From NCBI GenBank assembly GCA_017631885.1, contig JAGBSH010000027.1:1-64000 (forward strand): a stretch of DNA of 64,000 nucleotides, in the 5' to 3' direction. The notes under the pieces were generated by a model, which searched no databases, was not told where the DNA came from, and saw nothing but the letters and a program-made list of their open reading frames with translations. The translations under genes and the position numbers were made by a program. Origin of the DNA: Fibrobacteraceae bacterium (GTDB taxonomy: Bacteria; Fibrobacterota; Fibrobacteria; Fibrobacterales; Fibrobacteraceae). Shown piece after piece: positions 56,460 through 63,900 of this stretch; positions within the stretch are counted from its first letter, which is position 1; each line of letters begins with the position of its first letter.

Positions 56460-59400
56460 CTATTTCCCAAATTCTACCCTAAGCAATGGCACCCAAATTT
56501 CTTGTTCTAAATCATCTTGCCATCGGCAAACTTGCAGAAGTTTTGCCTTTTTGGGACTATAAGAATATTTCTGAAGATTCTCAAGATAATCACTTACAAA
56601 ATTATTAGAAAATGCTGCAATGAGTCGTCCATTGTATTTTGTATTATATGATTGAAACTCCTGATTAAAACCTATTTCAATCACAGTACCTAGTGGAAGT
56701 TTTTCAAATTTTTGTTGCAAATATCTTGTTCTATTCTTGTTCTTATCATTAATAAGAATATGCCCTAACTTCAAATCACCAAGTCCCGTTTCAATATGGA
56801 TCTTTTTGGGAATACTACATTCCCTTAACCGACCTTTTTTCGCAAAATTTTTTATCCAAGATTTTGGAAGATTGGTTTCTACTCCTAACACAGTCAATGT
56901 TTTTTTTGCACGAGTGGCTGCAACATAGAGCAAACGGAGTTGTTCTTGAGTTTCCGGTTTCCAATTTCCAAGATTTAAAACAACATGATCCCATTCAAGT
57001 CCTTTAGAACTATGCATCGTGCCAACATTTATTTGTTGTTTTTTATCGTTCAAATATTGCACAAATCCACCTAAAGTAACTTCGTCTTCACAATCTACGA
57101 AATCACTTACAACGGAATCTAAAAATTTGAAAGAACTTTCCTCTCTATGCTGTTCCTTATATCGTTCTGCCATCTGTTTGAACTGTTCTATAGTCCATGG
57201 TCTTTTAACAATTTCCTGATCCGTTTCAACAATTTGCTTGAAGCCAATAATTTCTCGAATGGATTCAACAGAACATTTTTCCTTATCCAATCCTTTTATA
57301 ATGCGGCAGTTCTCTCCTAGTTCTTCTAGCTTCGCAGCTGCAAGGAAAGATTCTGCATTTTTTGGACTTAAAATGCAAGCAGATTCCTTCACATCCTTTT
57401 TTTTGTCCAACAATATTTGAGCCGCAGCAAAAGCACCTCTTGACACATCATGTTCTTCGTAAAAATCAAGTTCACCTCTATCAAGATTGATGACCGTCTG
57501 TCGTTTACCACTTTTTACCCGATAATCCAAGTAACTCAAAATCTCTTCATTCCCACGCACAATTTTTGCCGCAGAACGGTAATTGTTAGTGAGATAAAAT
57601 TCCTTCGTATTTGGAAATTCCGTAGCAAATTTTCTGAAATATTCTGAAGAACTCCCTCGGAATTCAAAAATACTTTGATCATCATCGCCCACCGCAATAA
57701 TCCTTGGTGGCTTATCTCCATAATTGTATATAGCCTTGAGCATCTTATATTCTGAACTAGAAAGATCCTGAAACTCATCAACGAGAACAACACCAGGCGC
57801 TCCTATGCCTACATCTTCGCCAGACATAATGACTTCTGCGGCTTTATCAATAATATCTTCGCTATTGTTTTCTTTTCCCCTTCGCTTAAAATCTTTTTTA
57901 GAACCTTGTATTCCGAGAATTGAAAAGGCAAGAGCATGAAACGTCGTGATAGTAACTCCGTGAGCAAGACCTAAGGCTAAAGCATTTAGGCGTTTACGAA
58001 TTTCACGGCACGCCGAACGAGTAAATGTCAACACAAGCAACGAATTAGGTTGCGTTTCTTCTAGCCACAACAATGAAGCAGCCTTATGTACTAACATGTG
58101 CGTTTTTCCAGAACCTGGACCAGCCCCAACTAAAATGTGTCGTGCGCTACTTTTTATAATGGCTTTTTGTTCTTTATTTACAGCCCCAATACGTTCTCGA
58201 AGATTGATAGAGACGGCTCCCCTTTCTTCAGGAGTCATCACGTATTTCTGTCGAAAACTCTGTATATCTAATGTAAAGTAATCATTTAACAGATCCTGCG
58301 CAGCCTGCTTATTATACAGCATGGTTTCGGCATATTTACCTACAATATGAATAGCCTCAGCTTTATTTTCGTAGAAATCATGTAATTTTTTAAAATCACT
58401 TTCACGAAACACCCTAGAACTATTTTCTTGACTTATATCTAAAACAAGTCCAGTATAAAATACCATCAAACCATTTTCTAAATGAATCGCACCGATCAAA
58501 TGCAGGAAAAGTAATGCAAATTCAAACTGCGCTTGTCTAGCAAGATCTTCAATATCCTTCTCTCCATAAATTCTTAAAATAAGATTATCTATGGAAAACC
58601 AAATAAAATCATCGGCTAATTCACCATTCTTATTTGATTCTTCTTTTTGGAAGGATTGTTCCTTTTGTAAGACAAGTAAAGTATCAATAATTTTTTCAAA
58701 GCATTCCCAATTACTTTGTAGATTTTTTCGGACTAATTCAGGTTCCTTAAGAAATTCAATTCGGTATAGTTGATGCCCCGCTTCAATAAGGTGAATTTCG
58801 GCAATGCTTTCATGAGCCCAATAACGCAATATTCCTCGCATAATCTGCAAGCATTTTCTAGATTCAGTTCCCGATTCTGTGATTCCTCTAGCAGCATTGA
58901 CTTTTGTGAGATTCAATAAAAAATTTTCATCCACACTATGCCCTTCACAGTTCTTTAACAGGACTTCTTGCAAATCTTTTGCTCGAGCCAACATACGCTT
59001 GCTGTTAAATGTACCTAATCGCTGTATTTTAGCACTCCAGTCATTATGTTGATCTAGAAGGTGCTTACTACGTAATAATCGAAGGGCTTCGTTAGCATCT
59101 TTGCGTTCAATACCCAAATTAACCGTAATATCATCCAAAGCACATTCAGGGTTCTTTGTTCTCCTTTTAGTAATAATGTGCCGCATTATTCTATATGCAA
59201 TGTTCTCTATCGTATTTAACTTATCAATATTTGGAGAATCAAGAACGCTACGCACCTGGGAAACAGATTCTATTGTAATAGAAGAACCAAAAACTTGCGT
59301 CTGATTTCGGTTTCGTTTTAGAAATCCTTGATCTTCTAATAGCATAATGGCATGTTTCACCTTTGTTCCAAGCTGACCGATATTTTCGGTTTGTTCGGTC

Positions 59401-61385
59401 CAACCGCATTTATCTGCTATTTCAAGAGCCGACATCACAATTCGTTCACGTTTTTCACTTTGTTTTCTTAAAACCCGCCAAACTTCGCCAATTTCCTTCT
59501 CGGCTAATTTGTTTTGTTGTAAAATTTGAAAGTTAGTATCTAAATCTTTTGAGTTATACAATGCAACACAATACGCTTGCATATCAGGATTACGACCTGC
59601 TCGACCTGCTTCCTGCACATAATTTTCAAGGGAACTAGAAATTTCGTAATGAGCAACAAGTTCAACATTATCCTTGTCAACTCCCATTCCAAATGCGGTA
59701 GTTGCCACCATCGTATCAATTTTGCCATCATTTTTTTGGAATTCCTCTTGTACTTCCATTTTTTTATCAGATTCCATCTGTCCATGATAGCAACCACTTT
59801 TAAAACCATATTCATGTAATCCTTCTGCCAATCGTTCCGTAGCTTTGACGGTAGAAGCATAAATAATTTTAGGTCCATTATATTGTTTTAACAAGTCAAT
59901 CAATTCTTTACTACGTTCGTGTTTATCTTTAGAGGCTGAAATTACAGAGTATTCAAGATTTGTACGCACCGCAGTACTAACGAGTTTTACCAAATCAAGA
60001 TTCATTCTTTTTTTAAAGTAACCGCAAATATCATTGACAACATCCTGTTTGGCAGTTGCTGTAAAACAGCTTATTGGTATGTGTGTTTCCAATTTCTTTG
60101 CTTCTTCAAGTTCCTTGATAAAATCAGCAAGGTAAAGATAATCCACACGAAAATCCTGTCCCCAAGAGCTAAAACAATGAGCCTCATCAATGACAAACCG
60201 ATTAATGCGGCGGTATTTCAATAATTTGAATATGGTATTGGAACGAAGTGCTTCAGGAGAAATATAAAGAATGTCTTTTTCATTTTCAAAAATAGCACGA
60301 AAAGCATTTTTGCGCTCTAACGGAGAAATATCTGAATTAATGAATGTGGCTCGATCTATTCCAAAGCGCTTCGTTAGCACATCCACCTGATCCTTCATCA
60401 AGGCAACAATAGGAGAAATCACTACAGTCAAGGCACCTATCTGACTACCTGCAATCAGAGCTGGCAACTGAAAAGTCATTGATTTTCCACCACCAGTAGG
60501 GAACACAGCCAAAAGAGATTCTCCTCGCATAGCCGATTCCACAACCTGCTGTTGCAATGGTATCGTTTCTTCTTCGCTAAACGAACGAAAACCCGGAAAG
60601 CCAAACCATTTCTGTAACTGCTTTGTTGAATTCAATTGTTCAGTGCAATAAGAACACTTAGATTTTCCACAAGGAATAAGGCGGTGGCGATGCAAAATGC
60701 TTTCAAGATGTGGATACTGATAACGAACCCAATGAGGCACAAAATCACTAGGGCCTTCTTCATAAAAAAGAGTTAAAAGAAAGCACCATTCTGCACGATA
60801 AGTGGACCATTCGTTTTCAAAATTCTGATGAAGACAAATGGATTTGTCGTATTGTAAACAAAACCACTTCTGAACCTCTGACCACTTGGAACGAATTTCG
60901 TCAGACGTTGGAACAACAGCTAGCTGGAAAAAAGGAGAAAAACCCGGTTCCTTCTTTAAAAATTGAAACAGTAAATAGCGCAATTGCCATGGATATTCTT
61001 CCCATTTTTTGATGCAATCCTCTAGAAGATTCCTACAAAGTTCAGCATCCTTCAGAGGATTTGAAGGTTCCTCCTCATTCTGCAAATATTCCTTACGTAG
61101 TTTATGATAAGGTTTCTGCGGAAAAAGAAGGGAGGACAACATTAAAGTATCAAGAACCTTAATGCTCGGAAAATCAATGGAAAAATACTGTTTGAGAATA
61201 GGAGCATCATGTCGAAGTACATTATGCCCTACAATAAATGACGCCTTATCAGAAGCAGTTTCCAATTTAGCAGGGTCTTTATCCCGAACCTGTTCTTCAC
61301 CCAGAATATAACCATACTCCCGAACTTTCTGCAGTTTAGGATTGTACTCTAAATCAAAAAATAAAAATCTACTAAAATCAGGCAT
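56460..61385 (-). CDS. exonuclease-RecQ-UvrD fusion helicase
   Basis: A 1641-residue three-part DNA-repair-type protein. Residues 1-170 look like a DEDD 3'-5' exonuclease (FFDLEYN, FIVGHNVLRHDAPIL, PLKDAELC). Residues about 250-750 are a RecQ helicase with a Cys cluster CGKSKCSYC, Walker A VFPTGGGKSMTFQLPAL (near 295), VIDEAHCFSSWGQDFR (near 400) and QEAGRAGRN. Residues about 1070-1530 are a UvrD/PcrA-like helicase with VGAGPGSGKTHM, VDEFQDLSS, GDDDQSIFEFRG, GTMHSSKGLEWDHV and YVAATRAKKTL. All catalytic motifs are present. It lies at the right flank of the restriction island, convergent with the pseudogene. A role in recombination or defence is inferred. A possible defence link is suggested by its position only. 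Confidence 0.9.
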   Translation of the reverse strand: MPDFSRFLFFDLEYNPKLQKVREYGYILGEEQVRDKDPAKLETASDKASFIVGHNVLRHDAPILKQYFSIDFPSIKVLDTLMLSSLLFPQKPYHKLRKEYLQNEEEPSNPLKDAELCRNLLEDCIKKWEEYPWQLRYLLFQFLKKEPGFSPFFQLAVVPTSDEIRSKWSEVQKWFCLQYDKSICLHQNFENEWSTYRAEWCFLLTLFYEEGPSDFVPHWVRYQYPHLESILHRHRLIPCGKSKCSYCTEQLNSTKQLQKWFGFPGFRSFSEEETIPLQQQVVESAMRGESLLAVFPTGGGKSMTFQLPALIAGSQIGALTVVISPIVALMKDQVDVLTKRFGIDRATFINSDISPLERKNAFRAIFENEKDILYISPEALRSNTIFKLLKYRRINRFVIDEAHCFSSWGQDFRVDYLYLADFIKELEEAKKLETHIPISCFTATAKQDVVNDICGYFKKRMNLDLVKLVSTAVRTNLEYSVISASKDKHERSKELIDLLKQYNGPKIIYASTVKATERLAEGLHEYGFKSGCYHGQMESDKKMEVQEEFQKNDGKIDTMVATTAFGMGVDKDNVELVAHYEISSSLENYVQEAGRAGRNPDMQAYCVALYNSKDLDTNFQILQQNKLAEKEIGEVWRVLRKQSEKRERIVMSALEIADKCGWTEQTENIGQLGTKVKHAIMLLEDQGFLKRNRNQTQVFGSSITIESVSQVRSVLDSPNIDKLNTIENIAYRIMRHIITKRRTKNPECALDDITVNLGIERKDANEALRLLRSKHLLDQHNDWSAKIQRLGTFNSKRMLARAKDLQEVLLKNCEGHSVDENFLLNLTKVNAARGITESGTESRKCLQIMRGILRYWAHESIAEIHLIEAGHQLYRIEFLKEPELVRKNLQSNWECFEKIIDTLLVLQKEQSFQKEESNKNGELADDFIWFSIDNLILRIYGEKDIEDLARQAQFEFALLFLHLIGAIHLENGLMVFYTGLVLDISQENSSRVFRESDFKKLHDFYENKAEAIHIVGKYAETMLYNKQAAQDLLNDYFTLDIQSFRQKYVMTPEERGAVSINLRERIGAVNKEQKAIIKSSARHILVGAGPGSGKTHMLVHKAASLLWLEETQPNSLLVLTFTRSACREIRKRLNALALGLAHGVTITTFHALAFSILGIQGSKKDFKRRGKENNSEDIIDKAAEVIMSGEDVGIGAPGVVLVDEFQDLSSSEYKMLKAIYNYGDKPPRIIAVGDDDQSIFEFRGSSSEYFRKFATEFPNTKEFYLTNNYRSAAKIVRGNEEILSYLDYRVKSGKRQTVINLDRGELDFYEEHDVSRGAFAAAQILLDKKKDVKESACILSPKNAESFLAAAKLEELGENCRIIKGLDKEKCSVESIREIIGFKQIVETDQEIVKRPWTIEQFKQMAERYKEQHREESSFKFLDSVVSDFVDCEDEVTLGGFVQYLNDKKQQINVGTMHSSKGLEWDHVVLNLGNWKPETQEQLRLLYVAATRAKKTLTVLGVETNLPKSWIKNFAKKGRLRECSIPKKIHIETGLGDLKLGHILINDKNKNRTRYLQQKFEKLPLGTVIEIGFNQEFQSYNTKYNGRLIAAFSNNFVSDYLENLQKYSYSPKKAKLLQVCRWQDDLEQEIWVPLLRVEFGK

Positions 61386-61873: not shown

Positions 61874-62629
61874 TTATGGATTAGCTTTAATATTTAATTT
61901 TTCAAAAGTTTTATAATGGTTGTTTGTGTAATAAATCTGGCAACCTTTTGAATAAACTAATCGTTTCATTCCACGATTTTCTCCGAAATAGTCAACATCT
62001 GCTTCCCAATAAATACCAACGGGTAAATTTTGTTCTTTATTTTCAAAAACATCTCCGCCAATCATCACTCCTAAAGTAATCCAAGGATTAAAATTCCACT
62101 TGTTAAAACTTCGGCCAGTTTTACTTTCATAAAGTCGACGTCCCTCCGCTTTATTTACATAATTTGAAGGTAAACTTTCATTATCACAAATATATTGAGC
62201 CACTTCATCTTTTGATATCAATTGTTTTGTAGAATGATTATAAGAAAAACCTACAGAAGAAACCTTTTCTGAAGAGTCTAAAAAACTTTTATTAAAACAA
62301 AAGAAAAAAATTGTTAAAATAGCCAAAAATATGCATGCACAAATTTTATACTGACGATACGAAATTTTCTTTTTCCCGAAATTAGATTTCCCTTGCAAAT
62401 TTTGATTTGTTTTTAAAGGGACTCCTTCAAGACACCCCTTTTCTATTCTAGCACCCTTTTCATTTTTTCCAAATTTGTACACTAAAATCGTATCACCTAC
62501 TTTGGGATTTCGCACTGGCTTTCCTAAAACCGAAATATGAACAAAGTATTTCACGCCGTTCCCTTTAGCAAAACCAAACCCCTTTTTATCATTCCATTCT
62601 ATAATTGTAACTACATTAGTAAATGACAT
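61874..62629 (-). CDS. cold-shock domain / membrane anchor / barnase-type ribonuclease
   Basis: About 251 residues. Residues 6-65 resemble a cold-shock domain with RNP-type motifs KKGFGFAKG and YFVHIS. A single membrane helix (about 96-113, CACIFLAILTIFFFCF) follows a basic stretch, so the C-terminus should face the periplasm. Residues about 140-247 match barnase: ESLPSNYVNKAEGRRLY, IGGDVFENKEQNLP, YWEADVDY, RLVYSKGCQIYYT and NNHYKTFEKL. The barnase catalytic residues align as Lys160, Glu209, Arg223 and His238, so the RNase should be active. The frame opens at 62647; ATG 62629 has GGGAG eight bases upstream. It is 20 bases after the PH-like gene. No barstar is seen in the window. Confidence 0.8.
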   Translation of the reverse strand: MSFTNVVTIIEWNDKKGFGFAKGNGVKYFVHISVLGKPVRNPKVGDTILVYKFGKNEKGARIEKGCLEGVPLKTNQNLQGKSNFGKKKISYRQYKICACIFLAILTIFFFCFNKSFLDSSEKVSSVGFSYNHSTKQLISKDEVAQYICDNESLPSNYVNKAEGRRLYESKTGRSFNKWNFNPWITLGVMIGGDVFENKEQNLPVGIYWEADVDYFGENRGMKRLVYSKGCQIYYTNNHYKTFEKLNIKANP

Positions 62630-62649
62630 TGTATAATACTCCCACAACT

Positions 62650-63900
62650 TTATTTTTCTTTTCGTTGAACTTTCAATAATTTACATTTGTCTGCAGAATA
62701 TATTCCAAGCGCCTCTCCACGACCAATACAATTAGCCACAATGATATTGCCTTTTCGAACTTCTAGAAGTTTATCTGCTTGATTTTCTGGAAAATAAAGT
62801 TCTATTTCAACAATTTTATTATCGATATTTAAAAGATTCAAAGCACCAAGACCTTTAAACTTAACAACATAGTCTCCAAATAAATCTTTTTCAATTGAAC
62901 GAATCGCTCCCACAATTGAAAATCTAGTTCCATCAAAAGCCTTTTCTGCAGCTATTCCATTCTGATTATATGTTTCTACAATTTCTCGAATACTAGCCAA
63001 TTTACCTGTATCTTTTTTCTTATCATCAAAAAAATCTATTCCTACCACTATAACACTTAAAATAGCTATTACCAGATATATCAAAGCAAAAAAACTTGTC
63101 AAAACAGGCGATGTTGGTATTTTTTCTTTAAAATAAGAACCTTCATATATACGAAATAAATCTATTATCACCCATACACACAACACAACTAAAATAAATG
63201 CTGAAAGAATATCATGACTATCACTCAATTTACTAGATATCACATTTAAAATGAATTTTATTGCAGCACACCCCCATAATCCCCATATAAGATCATTTAA
63301 ACCCAACCATCCTAATAATCCTGTAACTAATGTTGCCGCTGTTCTATTAACCTTCGATTTCTCTACTGCAACTGGCTTAACAAAATCCCTTGTTTCTTTT
63401 TCATTTTCTTGTTCTAAATCATCTACAATCGGAACAAAGCCTTGCTCTTTTGCAACCAACCATCTATTGGCTAAATCCGCCATTACCTTAACCCCTTCTT
63501 TTAAACAATTATCTACTACAATTATGCGACTACCTAGATCAATAGAAATTTTTCCTAAAAGAAGTCCTTGCGATGCAGAAATAGCTTGAACTTTATCAAG
63601 TCTAACACTTTGCGAATCAATGGATGACGACAATAAAGCTGCATCCAAAAAAAGAAATCTTTCAGAAGTTAAAACTACAAGCCAAGTATTAAGTCCTGCA
63701 TCTAATTTATTAGAAGTTTCTGTCTGTCGCATAATTCCTGAAACAAGAGCAAAAACTACTTCATTTTCACCAAGATAATTAGCCAAACATTTTAATTCTT
63801 TCTTTGTTCCAAAAGAATCAAAATTGACATTATTCATTTCGCAAATGCCACGCCAATCAGCATTCTTTGTCATAATCTTATAGCGATTATAATTTTTCAT
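62650..63900 (-). CDS. PH-like, membrane and OB-fold protein
   Basis: A 416-residue protein. Residues about 40-150 resemble a bacterial PH domain (ENEVVFALVSGIMRQTE, WLVVLTSERFLFLDAA, VRLDKVQAISAS). Three hydrophobic segments lie around 190-225, 235-255 and 270-300. The C-terminal 110 residues look like the tRNA_anti-like OB-fold (FSIVGAIRSIEKDLFGDYVV, LLEVRKGNIIVANCIGRGEA). Function unknown; it may be a membrane sensor or adaptor. GGAG lies six bases before the ATG at 63900; alternative ATGs follow at codons 10 and 22. It begins 3 bases after the stop of the partial gene to its right and precedes the barnase-type gene in one transcript. Confidence 0.68.
   Translation of the reverse strand: MKNYNRYKIMTKNADWRGICEMNNVNFDSFGTKKELKCLANYLGENEVVFALVSGIMRQTETSNKLDAGLNTWLVVLTSERFLFLDAALLSSSIDSQSVRLDKVQAISASQGLLLGKISIDLGSRIIVVDNCLKEGVKVMADLANRWLVAKEQGFVPIVDDLEQENEKETRDFVKPVAVEKSKVNRTAATLVTGLLGWLGLNDLIWGLWGCAAIKFILNVISSKLSDSHDILSAFILVVLCVWVIIDLFRIYEGSYFKEKIPTSPVLTSFFALIYLVIAILSVIVVGIDFFDDKKKDTGKLASIREIVETYNQNGIAAEKAFDGTRFSIVGAIRSIEKDLFGDYVVKFKGLGALNLLNIDNKIVEIELYFPENQADKLLEVRKGNIIVANCIGRGEALGIYSADKCKLLKVQRKEK

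Follow-up and report, generated by a model that had tools for sequence, protein, structure and literature searches.

Is a ribonuclease of the barnase type, joined through a membrane helix to a cold-shock domain, a genuine protein architecture, and if so, how is the cell's own RNA spared and what is the cold-shock domain for? An open reading frame near one end of the window (the whole 64,000-nucleotide stretch of Fibrobacteraceae DNA that was analysed) raises these questions. The gene lies on the minus strand, with its start ATG at 62629, its stop codon at 61874-61876 and the coding part at 61877-62629. An upstream TTG (62647) was rejected as the start, because it overlaps the putative ribosome-binding GGGAG and homologues start at the ATG. 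The gene and the parts of its product, written as CSD (cold-shock domain), TM (transmembrane helix) and barnase, are as follows.

61874..62629, minus strand: CSD-TM-barnase gene, 251 aa, stop codon included; from the open frame and its translation, the homologous start being kept in relatives
62639..62643, minus strand: Shine-Dalgarno-like GGGAG, 9 nt 5' of the ATG; from the sequence
62420..62629, minus strand: cold-shock-like OB domain, predicted to be cytoplasmic, residues 1-70, with RNP1 KGFGF (16-20) and RNP2 YFVH (28-31); from fold matches, a weak Pfam CSD match and a dN/dS of about 0.08
62360..62419, minus strand: basic linker, predicted to be cytoplasmic, residues 71-90, net charge about +5 on the N-terminal side of the helix; from the charge count, with low pLDDT at 76-89
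62285..62359, minus strand: single membrane helix, residues 91-115; from the helix in the model and a hydropathy of 2.36
62216..62284, minus strand: flexible linker, predicted to be extracytoplasmic, residues 116-138; from pLDDT below 50 at 113-134
61892..62215, minus strand: barnase-type ribonuclease domain, residues 139-246, with K160, E209, R219, R223, H238 and Y239 and the cysteines C148/C230; from PF00545, the fold, and mapping of the catalytic residues and cysteines

An earlier note on this DNA had proposed that a cold-shock domain, a membrane helix and a barnase are joined in this one protein, with domain search and structure prediction as the check. Pfam, AlphaFold2 and fold comparison bore the proposal out, and both the barnase fold and the cold-shock fold were recovered. 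Residues 146-245 matched PF00545 at 51.2 bits (cut-off 24; E=1.9e-13), and the PDB sequences of barnase and binase matched the 251-aa protein at about 4e-13. The AlphaFold2 model, built on nine homologues, placed five strands within residues 6-67, one helix at 91-115 (Kyte-Doolittle maximum 2.36) and the helices and sheet of the barnase fold at 140-244; confidence was low mainly in both linkers. Its barnase part superposed on 1b20 (Z 12.2, 2.4 A, 103 residues), and Foldseek with the whole model gave a barnase match at E 1.2e-7.

The catalytic residues of barnase had been claimed to be conserved, and this held: in the alignment to barnase, K160, E209, R219, R223, H238 and Y239 correspond to K27, E73, R83, R87, H102 and Y103, all six identical. 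Equivalents of K27, D54, E73, R83, R87, H102 and Y103 were identical in every aligned Fibrobacteraceae barnase domain, fused or unfused, and that of N58, a guanine-contact residue, was kept in the window protein and in all but one of the aligned family domains. The equivalent of R59, which in barnase contacts barstar, is a lysine in the window protein and drifts widely among lipoprotein barnases. Barnase positions 15 and 94, which lie in helix 1 and in the His18-Trp94 contact of barnase, respectively, were both Cys in every fused protein and in most of the lipoproteins, and both non-Cys in the family members L018-L021 and L036; no sequence had a single Cys of the pair. A C148-C230 disulfide is therefore plausible from the sequences, and such a bond, if formed, would indicate an oxidising compartment.

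The N-terminal domain is more divergent. Alone, the window protein matched PF00313 at E=0.051 (13.9 bits, under the cut-off of 27); all four family members tested matched it, the best at E 8e-4. Because the score is under the curated cut-off, we call the domain cold-shock-like. Folded alone, it reached pLDDT 88 and its Foldseek matches were cold-shock proteins; in the whole model, where the five-stranded OB fold of cold-shock proteins is present, it superposed on CspC (Z 9.7, 1.8 A, 64 residues). KGFGF and FVH align to K13-F17 and F27-H29 of CspB. The CspB aromatics F15, F17, F27 and H29 are kept as F18, F20, F29 and H31, and RNP1 and RNP2 aromatics are mostly retained among the fused proteins; the nucleic-acid-contacting aromatics W8 and F30 are replaced by E11 and I32, so that binding may be weak. 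Single-stranded nucleic-acid binding by this domain is thus possible. PF00313 matches over the cut-off were absent from nearly all Fibrobacteraceae genomes sampled, including that of the window, and the Fibrobacteraceae may be without ordinary cold-shock proteins. The tree of the cold-shock domain was poorly resolved.

Both end domains are under strong purifying selection. Median pairwise dN/dS came to 0.077 in the CSD, 0.099 in the barnase domain and 0.55 across the linker plus TM helix, as calculated from pairs with dS of 0.1-1.5, which are not independent of each other, and with the window protein left out as too distant (dS saturated). The two low values establish that both ends are constrained.

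The complete CSD-TM-barnase fusion was found at 22 loci in 21 of the 111 genomes of the Fibrobacteraceae, a family of gut bacteria, and a three-part architecture recurring so often is neither a chance frame nor an assembly artefact. A profile of the fused protein matched 74 of the 111 genomes, nearly always over the barnase part, and none of the remaining Fibrobacterota genomes searched. In a scan of the genomes of 84,980 species with short patterns, which reach near relatives best, the fusion appeared in no genus but Fibrobacter, where the cultured F. intestinalis ATCC 43854 is among the carriers; its absence outside Fibrobacterota is based on this single scan and on plasmid, phage and viral collections. 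Relatives in the plasmid collection matched the barnase part only. A phage origin was rejected, phage records and viral contigs being without relatives.

The majority of unfused Fibrobacteraceae barnases are lipoproteins, in which Ser-rich linkers are frequent, and the second barnase in the genome of the window (L001) is one of them; within 1102-2569 of that locus, its gene is convergent with one whose secreted product looks, by eye, like endonuclease I. In the barnase tree, a supported branch (95/99) separated the fused proteins from the lipoproteins, except for L092 and L093, divergent long-branched barnase lipoproteins whose place in the tree is unsure. Both are encoded in Fibrobacter genomes in which the fusion occurs too. 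Three TM-anchored barnases (L035, L077 and L078) have a lysine-rich tail instead of the CSD and form one clade (100/99) within the fused clade. Because of this nesting, the simplest history would have a single fusion event, followed later by a single loss of the CSD.

Which side of the membrane the enzyme occupies can be read from the charges around the helix. In all fused proteins, the 15 residues before it carry a net +3 to +7 and those after it -1 to +3; by the positive-inside rule, this asymmetry points to a cytoplasmic N terminus and a barnase domain outside. The earlier view that the cold-shock domain is inside and the RNase outside is thereby sustained as an N-in/C-out topology. Together with the co-occurring cysteine pair, the charges make the predicted extracytoplasmic placement of the RNase well supported. 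Sister barnases in the Fibrobacteraceae are lipoproteins or are TM-anchored without a CSD, and the family as a whole looks exported.

The earlier note had also named a search for barstar in the rest of the genome as a check. Profile search of the genome of the window found nothing over the cut-off, and barstar exceeded it in only 1 of the 111 Fibrobacteraceae genomes; the search itself works, because the control genomes of E. coli and B. subtilis match. Barstar in a single genome, against 74 with the fused-protein profile, supports the reading that these barnases operate without barstar. The further suggestion that export of the RNase replaces barstar was upheld only in part: export is not peculiar to the fused protein, since the barnases of Fibrobacteraceae as a family look exported and barstar hardly occurs in these genomes. 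An inhibitor other than barstar is conceivable.

From the computed domains, conservation, selection, distribution and profile-based absence of barstar, we infer the topology, disulfide, enzymatic activity, nucleic-acid binding and physiological role as follows. The protein is probably an RNase anchored in the inner membrane and facing the periplasm, and its cytoplasmic cold-shock domain would touch single-stranded nucleic acid so as to anchor or regulate it. The CSD would stay in the cytoplasm, the basic-flanked single helix would serve as a signal anchor, and the barnase part would be delivered to the periplasm, where the C148-C230 disulfide would form. RNA would be cut by the barnase mechanism, with E209 as the general base, H238 as the general acid, and K160, R219 and R223 as phosphate contacts. 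Barstar would not be needed, because export during synthesis, possibly with a requirement for the disulfide, would spare the cell's own RNA. Inside, the CSD, by touching single-stranded nucleic acid, would anchor, localise or regulate the enzyme. A likely use would be to degrade RNA arriving in the periplasm, either to scavenge nucleotides or to clear it away, alongside the lipoprotein barnase that this genome also encodes.

The cold-shock domain could instead be part of a mere membrane anchor, for which any cytoplasmic tail of positive charge would suffice; the domain would then be conserved for folding or protein contacts and not for nucleic-acid binding. The clade in which a Lys-rich tail replaces the CSD is consistent with this, and indicates that the RNase can do without the CSD; lipoprotein barnases likewise manage without the CSD-TM part. 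In addition, seven proteins (L039, L040, L043, L089, L090, L095 and L096) end shortly past the helix with no ectodomain, and a further version, L097, is a deletion remnant. Most of the short CSD-TM proteins have degenerate RNP motifs, with most RNP aromatics lost, so the module may serve something other than nucleic-acid binding. However, in the fused proteins the dN/dS of the CSD is as low as that of barnase and the RNP1 and RNP2 aromatics are mostly kept, which makes a plain anchor rather unlikely.

The CSD-TM part also carries an ectodomain other than barnase. L086-L088 consist of an N-terminal CSD, a basic linker, one TM helix and an Excalibur ectodomain, a layout in common with the fused protein, and Excalibur in Fibrobacteraceae was found only on this chassis (4/4 genomes). 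These cases include a degenerate remnant (L042/L136) in a genome of the genus to which the window belongs. An exchangeable ectodomain, barnase or Excalibur, would suit a one-protein transmembrane RNA device in which the CSD senses or grips single-stranded nucleic acid and controls or positions the RNase across the membrane, an idea that we regard as speculative and unlikely. It is quite improbable that the two ectodomains are alternatives of one machine for nucleic-acid uptake or export, with the CSD capturing or releasing ssRNA or ssDNA inside and the ectodomain processing it outside. The shared chassis and the strong selection on CSD and barnase alike would fit such a machine, but a single TM helix forms no channel, an uptake gene conserved beside the loci was not found, and the TM-only clade exists without a CSD.

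Genomic context offered little further guidance. In the window, the fusion is preceded by a gene on the same strand that ends 20 nt before its ATG, and the two are likely co-transcribed.

62650..63900, minus strand: upstream gene for a 416-aa protein that has a bPH_3 (bacterial PH) domain and membrane helices and weakly matches OB (tRNA_anti-like)

Homologues of the bPH_3 gene were present in 16 of the 111 genomes and upstream of the fusion at 3 of the 22 loci in all, lying 2.4-3 kb upstream in G130 and G112, with two NERD genes between in G130. At L127 and L128, a bPH_3 gene stands beside a NERD gene without any barnase. Also in the window, 56460-61385 encodes a 1641-aa protein in which, by eye, RecQ-like and UvrD-like helicase parts follow an N terminus resembling an exonuclease. 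Neighbours otherwise vary (ilvC near many Fibrobacter loci, glycan and transport genes in F. intestinalis, bPH_3 at three), and no partner or immunity gene common to all fusion loci was found among them. Since neighbours at other loci are unrelated, the fusion gene usually stands alone; the context is variable and gives no pathway. It is very improbable that the protein is a toxin or serves in defence, directed at neighbouring cells or phage, with the cell made immune by the compartment or by some unknown inhibitor. Polymorphic systems commonly have barnase domains among their toxin parts (PMC3482391), and the bPH_3 gene at three loci, with nuclease-related NERD genes between in L105, would suit that role, but the 251-aa CSD-TM protein is short and anchored in the inner membrane, has no toxin-trafficking domain or long N-terminal trafficking region of the polymorphic-toxin kind, and has neither an immunity neighbour shared across the loci nor a barstar.

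The earlier note knew of no described protein of this layout. For the full combination this stands, as our literature search for a cold-shock domain with barnase or with a membrane-anchored ribonuclease returned nothing relevant; for the CSD-membrane module it does not, since 301 other CSD-Excalibur proteins, nearly all proteobacterial, are in nr (PMC4679880) and CSDs joined to a membrane DUF or to DUF1294 are known, mainly from Proteobacteria (PMC7404187). The novelty is thus a barnase on a known module, a combination apparently undescribed.

Compared with these systems, CSD-DUF1294 proteins, one of which (L050) occurs in one Fibrobacteraceae genome, share the N-terminal CSD and a membrane part with the fused protein but end in DUF1294, with several helices and no nuclease. 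CSD-Excalibur proteins also have the CSD at the N terminus, and those of Fibrobacteraceae agree with the fused protein in the kind of CSD and in having one helix; their ectodomain is the calcium-binding Excalibur domain, whereas that of the fused protein is barnase. To these little-studied membrane-bound CSD proteins the fusion adds an enzyme of well-defined chemistry, and the class becomes testable because topology, binding and cleavage can be assayed on one small protein. The lipoprotein barnases of Fibrobacteraceae, such as L001, belong to the same barnase subfamily, mostly have the same Cys pair and occur in the same genomes, but differ in their lipobox, in a linker that is often rich in Ser, and in lacking both a CSD and a retained membrane helix. 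With barnase and binase of the RNase N1-T1 family (PF00545), the fused protein shares the fold, the equivalents of K27, E73, R83, R87, H102 and Y103, and probably the extracytoplasmic destination. Unlike those freely secreted enzymes, it is anchored by an N-terminal CSD-TM part, has an extra covarying Cys pair and lacks barstar; it would thus be a barnase that in nature does without barstar, the compartment, perhaps with a disulfide, taking the place of the inhibitor.
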